Position numbers and translations under genes: made by a program
In this document: piece after piece, positions 1 to 2,201 of the stretch
Numbering within the stretch: the first letter of the stretch is position 1
How the letters are laid out: every line of letters starts with the position of its first letter
Origin: Syntrophomonadaceae bacterium
GTDB lineage: Bacteria; Bacillota; Syntrophomonadia; Syntrophomonadales; Syntrophomonadaceae
Length of the DNA: 35,206 nt
Direction: 5' to 3'
Assembly: GCA_012522955.1 (NCBI GenBank)
Contig: JAAYJK010000103.1
Span: 1 to 35,206, forward strand
Notes under the pieces: generated by a model
The model's input: the letters and a program-made list of their open reading frames with translations, nothing else
Database searches by the model: none
Told to the model about the DNA's origin: nothing

Positions 1-112
1 CTGGTAACTATAGCGGAGAGGTCACACCCGTTCCCATCCCGAACACGGCAGTTAAGCTCTCCTGCGCCGATGGTACTGCATTAATTTGTGGGAGAGTAGG
101 TCGTTGCCAGGA
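1..112 (+). rRNA. rrf: 5S ribosomal RNA
   Basis: The sequence carries the conserved 5S core (CCCGTTCCCATCCCGAACAC, then GTTAAGC and GGGAGAGTAGGTCG). The first eight bases (CTGGTAAC) pair with GTTGCCAG at 103-110, closing helix I. One or two 5' bases may lie before the window. It should be the last gene of an rRNA operon whose 16S and 23S genes lie upstream of the window; that part is inferred. No clear intrinsic terminator with a T-run follows it. Confidence 0.95.
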
Positions 113-244
113 TTTAATTTATTTCTGCTTAACTTACAGCAGAGCTGGAAAAATGTTTACAAGGGTAGATGGGATCAGTGGTTGATAGAATTTCTTGCCT
201 GGGCAAGGTATATGTGATAACATAAATTTGAACTTTAAAGGATT

Positions 245-279
245 GGAGAAAGAACATGCGCAAGTGTTTTCTGGCCTAA
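245..279 (+). CDS. Putative 7-codon leader peptide upstream of the ABC-F gene
   Basis: ATG at 256 opens a seven-residue ORF, MRKCFLA, ending at TAA 277-279. GGAG at 245-248 sits seven bases upstream, a well-spaced ribosome binding site. The codons for KCFL lie inside the 5' arm of a long-range hairpin (262-274 with 336-346). Short leader ORFs whose translation senses ribosome-targeting drugs are known for erm, cat, msr and some ABC-F genes; a role as a stalling peptide here is inference. The peptide has no sequence match that I recognise. Confidence 0.5.
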
Positions 280-346
280 ATGAATACTGGCAGGTCGGGG
301 GAAGAATAGAGATTCTTGCTATGGCCCTGCTGTGACCAGAACACTT
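262..346 (+). promoter_or_regulatory. Nested leader RNA hairpin of the ABC-F gene
   Basis: AAGTG(TT)TTCTGG at 262-274 pairs with CCAGAACACTT at 336-346, with a two-base bulge. Inside it GCAGG (290-294) can pair with CCTGC (326-330), and AAGAAT-AGAG-ATTCTT forms a small apical hairpin at about 302-317. The 5' arm overlaps the leader ORF, so a ribosome on that ORF would open the outer stem. This is the arrangement expected of an attenuator controlled by leader translation; the mechanism is inferred. Confidence 0.5.
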
Positions 347-416
347 GTTATGAACTGCAATAGTTGGAAGTTGCGAAGGTATACCTTTCGTGATTTAGGT
401 CTTATATAGCTTAAAG

Positions 417-460
417 AAGCTGTAGGTGACGAGTGTCTCCTGCAGCTTTTGATATTTTCT
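417..460 (+). terminator. Terminator-like attenuator hairpin before the ABC-F gene
   Basis: AAGCTGTAGG (417-426) pairs with CCTGCAGCTT (439-448), ten pairs with one G-T wobble and a 12-base loop. It is followed by TTTTGATATTTT. It lies directly before the ribosome binding site of the ABC-F gene rather than after a gene, so it fits a conditional terminator in the leader. A further imperfect hairpin (CGAAGGT/ACCTTTCG) lies at about 375-391. Confidence 0.55.
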
Positions 461-464
461 GGAG

Positions 465-2201
465 GTGTTTATCATACTGTTAAGCTGTCGTAGAATAAAA
501 AAATCCTTTGGAGATCGAACGGTATTAAAAAATATTGATATGGATATAGGCAAGGGTGATCGAATCGGTTTGGTTGGCCGTAATGGAGCAGGTAAAACCA
601 CCCTGGCTAATATTCTCACAGGTTCCCTAGATTTTGATGATGGGACCATTATTTGCACCCGCCAACAATTTAATATCGGCTATTTGCGGCAAACGGAGGC
701 AGAACCTGAGCTGTTTCTGAATGTGCTGAATATGGAAACAGAAGTCAATGGAGAATTCCAACGATTGTCCAGCCATCTGGGTATAAATCAGCTTAAGAAC
801 TGGTCAGGAGACAGGATGCAGAAACTAAGCGGGGGAGAAAAGACGAAAATTGCATTGACCCGAGTTTGGTCTGCCCATCCTGAGCTGTTGATTTTGGATG
901 AACCCACCAACCATATGGATTATCAGGGAATTAGTTTCCTCATATCCGAACTTTCGGCTTATAAAGGAGCGGCCATAATTATATCTCACGATCGTTATTT
1001 CCTGGATCGTACTATTTCGAAAATAGCTGAGATTGATAACGGGAAGCTGAAAATGTATCCAGGCAATTACTCTGCTTATCGGCAAAGGAGGCAAAAGGAA
1101 CGAGAAAGCCAATTACACCTCTATGAGTCTCAGCAGAAAGAGCAAAACCAAATTGAAAGAAAAATCAAGCAGCTAAAGAGCTGGTCTGATAAGGCTCACC
1201 GGGAATCACGGCAGAAGGCCGCAGGGAGGATGGGAGGCAAGGAGTACTATCGTAAAAAGGCCAAAAAGCGGGATCAGGCGGTAAAATCCCAGATCAAACG
1301 CCTGGAAAAAATGCAGCATGAAGGCAAAAGCCGTCCGGAAAAGGAGGCGCAGGTTATTTTTGATCTGACTGCACGAGACCAAGGAGGGAAACGTCTGGTG
1401 GAAGGCCAGGCCGCCGGCAAATGCTTTGGGGAACTGCTATTGTTTAAAGACAGTTCTTTTTATGTTAAACGGGGTGAAAAAGTAGGCATTTCAGGTTCCA
1501 ACGGATGTGGAAAGACTACGCTGATAAATATAATTGGAGGGCGTGAGAGCTTGAATGCCGGCAGTATTTTTGTGAGTCCATCCGCCCGAATTGCTTTTGT
1601 GAATCAAGAATTACCCCAGGGAGAGAAAGACACCGTATTGGACACCTTGAAGGCGGTAAAGCTGGGAGAAAGGAAAAATACCCTTCAGCTTTTGGTTAAT
1701 ATGGGCCTGGCCTATGATCGTATGCAAGTACCCATGGGAAAGCTCAGCCGGGGCGAGAGAATGAAGATTGCCATGGGTATGGGGATTATGGGTGAATATG
1801 ATCTGCTCATTATGGATGAACCCACCAATCATTTGGATGTCTATAGCCGTGAGGCTCTGGAGGAAAGCCTGATTGGATTTCCCGGGACTATTCTGTTAAT
1901 TTCTCATGATCGCTATTTCCTGGATAGGGTCTGCAATGTGATGCTGGTGTTTGAGCGACAAAGAATCAAACGAGTGGAGAGCAATCTTTCGGATTATTTG
2001 TCCAGTCAGTTGTCCCCAACGGCTGCTTCAGGGTCAAAAAATAATGATAACCGGGAGGAATTGCTATTAGTGGAAACCCAAATATCCAGGCTACTAGGTG
2101 AATTCAACCGTTACCAACTGGGGGAAGCAGATTATATAGCCCTCGATCTTAAATACCAGCAGCTTTTGCAACGGAAAAAAGCGCTCCAGAACAGGCAATA
2201 A
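465..2201 (+). CDS. ABC-F family ATPase, probable ribosomal-protection (antibiotic resistance type) protein
   Basis: About 575 residues with two ABC domains in one chain and no membrane segments, the hallmark of ABC-F. Domain 1 has Walker A GRNGAGKTT (about residues 38-46), signature LSGGE (about 121-125) and Walker B with DEPTNHMD. Domain 2 has GSNGCGKTT (about 344), LSRGE and DEPTNHLD. The inter-domain linker is long, charged and helical (RESRQKAAGRMGG, then EYYRKKAKKRDQ), resembling the drug-displacing linkers of the Vga/Msr/VmlR group rather than EttA. ABC-F proteins bind the ribosomal E site and change the peptidyl-transferase centre. A leader ORF plus terminator hairpin upstream fits inducible expression. 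The start is unclear: the first in-frame GTG (465) overlaps the GGAGG at 461-465, and no ATG, GTG or TTG stands at normal spacing. Candidates are ATC 471, ATA 474 or CTG 477. The drug spectrum cannot be read from sequence. Confidence 0.9.
   Translation: MFIILLSCRRIKKSFGDRTVLKNIDMDIGKGDRIGLVGRNGAGKTTLANILTGSLDFDDGTIICTRQQFNIGYLRQTEAEPELFLNVLNMETEVNGEFQRLSSHLGINQLKNWSGDRMQKLSGGEKTKIALTRVWSAHPELLILDEPTNHMDYQGISFLISELSAYKGAAIIISHDRYFLDRTISKIAEIDNGKLKMYPGNYSAYRQRRQKERESQLHLYESQQKEQNQIERKIKQLKSWSDKAHRESRQKAAGRMGGKEYYRKKAKKRDQAVKSQIKRLEKMQHEGKSRPEKEAQVIFDLTARDQGGKRLVEGQAAGKCFGELLLFKDSSFYVKRGEKVGISGSNGCGKTTLINIIGGRESLNAGSIFVSPSARIAFVNQELPQGEKDTVLDTLKAVKLGERKNTLQLLVNMGLAYDRMQVPMGKLSRGERMKIAMGMGIMGEYDLLIMDEPTNHLDVYSREALEESLIGFPGTILLISHDRYFLDRVCNVMLVFERQRIKRVESNLSDYLSSQLSPTAASGSKNNDNREELLLVETQISRLLGEFNRYQLGEADYIALDLKYQQLLQRKKALQNRQ

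Follow-up and report, generated by a model that had tools for sequence, protein, structure and literature searches.

We propose that the leader in front of an ABC-F gene in a Syntrophomonadaceae bacterium is a transcription attenuator controlled by a ribosome on a short leader ORF, and we consider this reading highly probable. The DNA analysed (the window) comprises positions 1 to 35,206 of contig JAAYJK010000103.1 of assembly GCA_012522955.1, and its relevant features are collected in Table 1. By analogy with vmlR and cplR, whose control has been established experimentally, the leader is a clade-specific attenuator of the same logic that is absent from Rfam. In the proposed mechanism, when no drug is present the leader ORF would be translated and quickly vacated, and the hairpin P1 would form and hide the switch strand. 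With this strand hidden the terminator would form, and transcription would stop before the ABC-F gene. A drug acting on the peptidyl-transferase centre would instead keep a ribosome on the first codon of the leader ORF or immediately beyond it, so that the 5' arm of P1 is covered. The freed switch strand could then pair with its downstream partner before the 3' arm of the terminator has been made, in which case termination would be blocked and the gene transcribed. The original prediction had also read this leader as an attenuator, which our analyses support as largely right, the detail of the antiterminator aside.

Table 1. Features of the leader and its surroundings in the window.
Feature	Position	Strand	Remarks
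5S rRNA	1-112		Contig begins with this gene; leader, then ABC-F gene, come next
Predicted promoter	195-223	+	TTGCCT 195-200, 17-nt spacer, extended -10 TGaTAACAT 215-223; conserved position
Shine-Dalgarno of leader ORF, GGAG	245-248	+	7 nt before ATG
Leader ORF (uORF) MRKCFLA	256-279	+	ATG CGC AAG TGT TTT CTG GCC TAA; conserved in relatives
P1, leader-ORF hairpin (anti-antiterminator)	260-348	+	260-274 with 336-348; covariation in 22 leaders
P2, inner stem at P1 apex	about 285-333
Switch strand, ACACUUGUUAU	341-351	+	3' arm of P1 and 5' strand of predicted antiterminator; forms 11 uninterrupted pairs with 426-436
P3, hairpin between P1 and terminator	368-396	+	Inside antiterminator helix; predicted with ribosome on uORF
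Predicted intrinsic terminator hairpin	415-450	+	15 bp, U-rich tail to about 460; energy and covariation
Antiterminator 3' strand, GUGACGAGUGU	426-436	+	Upper end of the terminator 5' arm, the loop and first part of the 3' arm
Shine-Dalgarno of ABC-F gene, GGAGG	461-465	+	Invariant in leader alignment
ABC-F ribosome protection protein, ARE-type, VmlR2-like	474-2201	+	NCBIfam NF000355 above cut-off

The ABC-F gene and the distribution of its leader

The product of the gene scores above the cut-off of the NCBIfam model for ribosomal protection-like ABC-F proteins (NF000355), and judged by its sequence it belongs to the antibiotic-resistance (ARE) class. Its best relatives in the PDB are 8buu (VmlR2, 469 bits) and 6ha8 (VmlR, 335 bits), and the long interdomain linker (SWSDKAHRES...GGKEYYRKKAKK) aligns in full with both. 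The protein is closer to VmlR2 than to VmlR and falls far under the cut-off of the CplR model. Within its own genome the second-best match covered only part of the length (E 2e-36). The nearest named relative by this gene is a Syntrophomonadaceae MAG (L009) with 83% identity. In the window and in L009 an ATA is found in place of ATG at the start of the gene (GGAGGTGTTTATC ATA CTG; window 461-479, L009 about 1888-1906), and the other relatives have ATG. The gene is thus likely to begin in both with the non-standard codon AUA, at 474 in the window, the alternatives being CTG at 477 or a GTG at 465 overlapping the ribosome site. AUA is a start codon that initiation factor 3 discriminates against. 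The 5S rRNA gene stands directly before the leader at the contig start, probably because of an assembly break in an rRNA operon. No 5S rRNA was seen near the ABC-F gene in 20 relatives, and this adjacency is therefore probably not part of the system.

We aligned 22 leaders, consisting of that of the window and those found before homologues of 56-83% identity in the same order, and the same leader was present upstream of every homologue checked within this range. A search of 63 genomes of the order with an RNA model of the leader found 23 copies, each standing before the ABC-F gene; these are the 22 aligned leaders and one more (L075), which was absent from model building, was found only by the RNA model (E 1.1e-13) and likewise precedes the beginning of this gene. 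When 398 genomes sampled from the phylum were searched with this model, no copy turned up outside the order, and in neither set did one stand before another gene. The original prediction had proposed looking for the ORF and stems in near relatives, and they are kept in all 22 leaders and in the held-out 23rd. These comparisons of sequence show the leader, its ORF, P1 and the terminator to be conserved and strictly tied to the ABC-F gene. One genome (G052) has two ABC-F copies, on contigs C183 and C187, each with such a leader (L015 and L034, uORFs MRKHILA and MRKQILV).

A second ABC-F group of the same family (L030, L031 and L032; 33-35% identity) has a different leader, in which a tiny ORF (GTG or TTG, AGG, AAN, TAA) encodes MRN or MRK. 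A hairpin lies nearby (e.g. AGTGGCATC/GATGTTACT), and AGTAGCATT, ahead of the gene's ribosome site, is a second possible partner for its 3' arm; the arrangement looks like an independent attenuator. By eye, other short leader ORFs were seen before more distant ABC-F homologues (about 40-46%), namely MFIRS, MFIHVLN, MRR, MWN, MKY and MINLFLA. The last of these, from a homologue of 40% identity (L051), begins like the uORF of Bacillus subtilis vmlR (MIN) and ends like that of the window (FLA).

Promoter and leader ORF

In 19 of the 22 leaders a -10-like hexamer preceded by TG was found 31-38 nt upstream of the leader ORF, in most cases together with a -35 of TTG type. Promoter scores of single sequences were not above those of shuffles, and the evidence for the promoter is therefore its conserved position. 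Transcription is expected from this to start near 230 (229-231). The original prediction would have been contradicted by a start downstream of 346; the one predicted here lies upstream of the ORF. The same start bears on an antiterminator that had been suggested between 133-140 and 419-426 (CTTACAGC/GCTGTAGG). The eight-base complementarity does exist, but 133-140 lies upstream of the predicted promoter and so outside the predicted transcript, and this pairing would require transcription to enter from the side of the 5S rRNA. Moreover, CTTACAGC is missing from the printed upstream sequence of the nearest relative, and we give this antiterminator a practically negligible chance.

The seven-codon ORF with its well-placed ribosome site, the starting point of the original prediction, was borne out by the alignment. 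Each of the 22 leaders has a ribosome site of GGAG or GAGG type ahead of the ORF, the start codon is AUG or GUG, and the relatives mostly follow the pattern MRK-x-(I/F/L/T)-L-A and then a stop. Codon 2 encodes Arg or His and codon 3 Lys (replaced in two) in the aligned leaders, 21 of which have seven codons. The remaining one (L023) reads MRK and then stop, as does the held-out L075, with a GUG start. That the ORF is shortened to MRK-stop in two lineages speaks for sensing during initiation or on the first codons, and not by a long nascent peptide. The leader ORF is probably translated, and a ribosome would stall on it. We also observed that CCTAAATAAATA, around and after the stop codon (about 274-287 in the window), is strongly conserved and lies outside the helices tested.

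The conserved Arg-Lys codons could also suit a general translation or amino-acid attenuator, in which the ribosome pauses for lack of Arg, Lys or Cys and not because of a drug. We consider this very unlikely, given that the ORF has no run of a single amino acid but one Arg and one Lys codon, both in the paired arm, that codon 4 varies freely, and that the gene encodes a ribosome protection protein and not a biosynthetic function. The strong conservation of parts of P1 and of the TAAATAAATA next to it might point to a ligand-binding riboswitch or a protein-binding leader, with the ORF incidental. However, conservation of the ORF extends to the class of its start codon (AUG/GUG), its ribosome site and its reading frame, and no Rfam 15 covariance model matched the leader even at E 5, which makes such a leader highly improbable. 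The riboswitches and T-box of Rfam were rejected on this lack of a match.

Leader hairpin, terminator and computed switch

P1 and the terminator are supported by covariation among the aligned sequences. In the 22 leaders, 96.8% of the P1 cells and 97% of the terminator cells are paired, together 96.9% compared with 32-53% when the partner was slid by 1-3 columns. Two-sided changes were found in 10 pairs, eight of them in the terminator, and none of 500 shuffles matched this. Those in P1 correspond to codon 4 of the leader ORF, which pairs with the 3' arm as TG/CA, CG/CG or CA/TG, and on the protein tree these two pairs change at least four times. A tree-based test of correlated change in P1 and the terminator gave no opposite-direction pairs, with too few supported independent pairs for significance. 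The long-range stem originally drawn at 262-274/336-346 thus stood and became slightly longer.

The hairpin directly before the gene, which had been described as a 10-bp stem at 417-448, was also found, but that length was too short: it comprises 12 bp (415-426/439-450) and a further 3 bp (428-430/435-437), with a predicted energy of -22.6 kcal/mol, and runs into TTTTGATATTTTCT. A simple terminator scan did not list this hairpin. The region 225-470 folds more stably than all of its dinucleotide shuffles (z -3.4), and so does 113-465 (z -4.0). The hairpin would end transcription.

The tail of the terminator is U-rich yet interrupted in the window, and it is interrupted in many other leaders. 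This would favour translation attenuation as the main mode, in which the hairpins would mostly conceal the start of the ABC-F gene or its Shine-Dalgarno, with termination playing a minor part. The leaders of vmlR and cplR join both modes (PMC9226507, PMC10201436), and one fold of the window has the Shine-Dalgarno covered by a weak hairpin of A-U and G-U pairs. However, this hairpin is outside the consensus fold, and the terminator ends at 450 and leaves out the GGAGG, therefore a mainly translational control appears unlikely to us.

Returning to transcription attenuation, our computations point to the 3' arm of P1 as the probable antiterminator strand missing from the earlier account, its partner being the stretch 426-436. 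The CTTGT of this switch strand is invariant in the 22 leaders, in which 90.5% of the antiterminator cells are paired compared with 34-55% when slid, and the duplex has a mean energy of -13.9 kcal/mol compared with -6.1 for a shuffled strand. The fit became poorer when partners were permuted among the leaders (p 0.03; outside P1, p 0.0095), values that are uncorrected for relatedness. No two-sided covariation was found in the antiterminator columns among the 22 leaders, perhaps because the switch strand must also pair in P1 and is nearly invariant. By eye, TAAATAAATA after the ORF seemed able to pair with a stretch resembling TATTTATATA ahead of the terminator; as the window does not keep this pairing, it was dropped.

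Folding of the window with the polymerase at 437 and no ribosome gave P1 a probability of 0.98 and the antiterminator 0.02. With the RNA hidden as far as 271, as by a ribosome on the start codon, the antiterminator rose to 0.91, and with it hidden as far as 280, to 0.96. Averaged over the 23 leaders, the antiterminator rose from 0.09 in the free RNA to 0.73 with the ribosome at codon 1 and 0.81 at codon 3, and the controls masking equal stretches elsewhere gave 0.37 and 0.11. It stayed below 0.5 in six of the 23 leaders at codon 1 and in four at codon 3. For L009 and L022 the calculation showed it forming even without a ribosome. For the full-length leader, the terminator wins at equilibrium in all calculated states, and the switch would therefore have to be kinetic, which is also the case in other attenuators.

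Known attenuators and meaning of the leader

For bmrCD, lmo0919/vgaL, msrD and erm, a resistance gene is regulated by a ribosome that a drug stalls on the leader ORF. The genes, leader peptides and RNA folds there differ from those of the window. One of the closest likenesses is to vmlR, where ribosomes that a drug has stalled on a uORF of three codons block an anti-antiterminator and initiation on the uORF is essential (PMC9226507). As in the B. subtilis vmlR leader, the ORF with its own ribosome site lies within a 5' hairpin that would act as anti-antiterminator, the predicted antiterminator would enclose a further hairpin, and a predicted intrinsic terminator stands between the ORF and an ARE-ABC-F gene, present after all 23 leaders. 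The natural vmlR uORF variants MDN, MDK and MRK function, MRK less well, and MRK occurs in other Bacillus (PMC9226507). Unlike that leader, the window has seven codons and not three, and another sequence, the likeness described here being one of design. The NusG motif TTNTTT is absent from 231-460 of the window and present in only some relatives. In vmlR, SL-4 hides the Shine-Dalgarno of the gene, whereas in the window only the weak hairpin mentioned above could do so.

The same logic has been shown for cplR of Clostridioides difficile, with a uORF MRI (consensus MR[I/M]) and proven drug induction (PMC10201436). This leader likewise has a Met-Arg uORF in a 5' hairpin and a terminator before an ARE-ABC-F gene, but its terminator hides the Shine-Dalgarno of the gene and that of the window does not. 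Leaders of vmlR2 also have a short uORF, and VmlR2 (8buu) is the nearest characterised protein; the comparison made here covers protein and uORF, and the vmlR2 uORF consensus, MK[L/Q], is another one (PMC10201436). It is argued that ribosomes on these short uORFs are halted by pleuromutilin, lincosamide, streptogramin A and nucleoside drugs, and that context has little influence on this (PMC10201436). From the kinship of the gene with VmlR2 and the work on vmlR and cplR (PMC9226507, PMC10201436), we infer that a drug of the peptidyl-transferase centre induces the gene; by this analogy the likeliest candidates are a lincosamide, a pleuromutilin or a streptogramin A.

Perhaps this leader represents an RNA family not described before, belonging to the Syntrophomonadaceae and their order. 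The MRK core would in that case be a general drug sensor, since the system persists where codon 4 has become a stop, and the AUA start a second brake in the species of the window and its nearest relative; we offer this combined view tentatively, as doubtful. The principle is already established and what is new is a clade-specific case, of use for annotation and as a candidate Rfam family, and the comparative data set lets three competing strands be read off. A type of control known from Bacillus and Clostridioides would here appear in an undescribed form in another lineage, and drug-sensing control of ABC-F ribosome protection would thereby extend to mostly uncultured syntrophic anaerobes.
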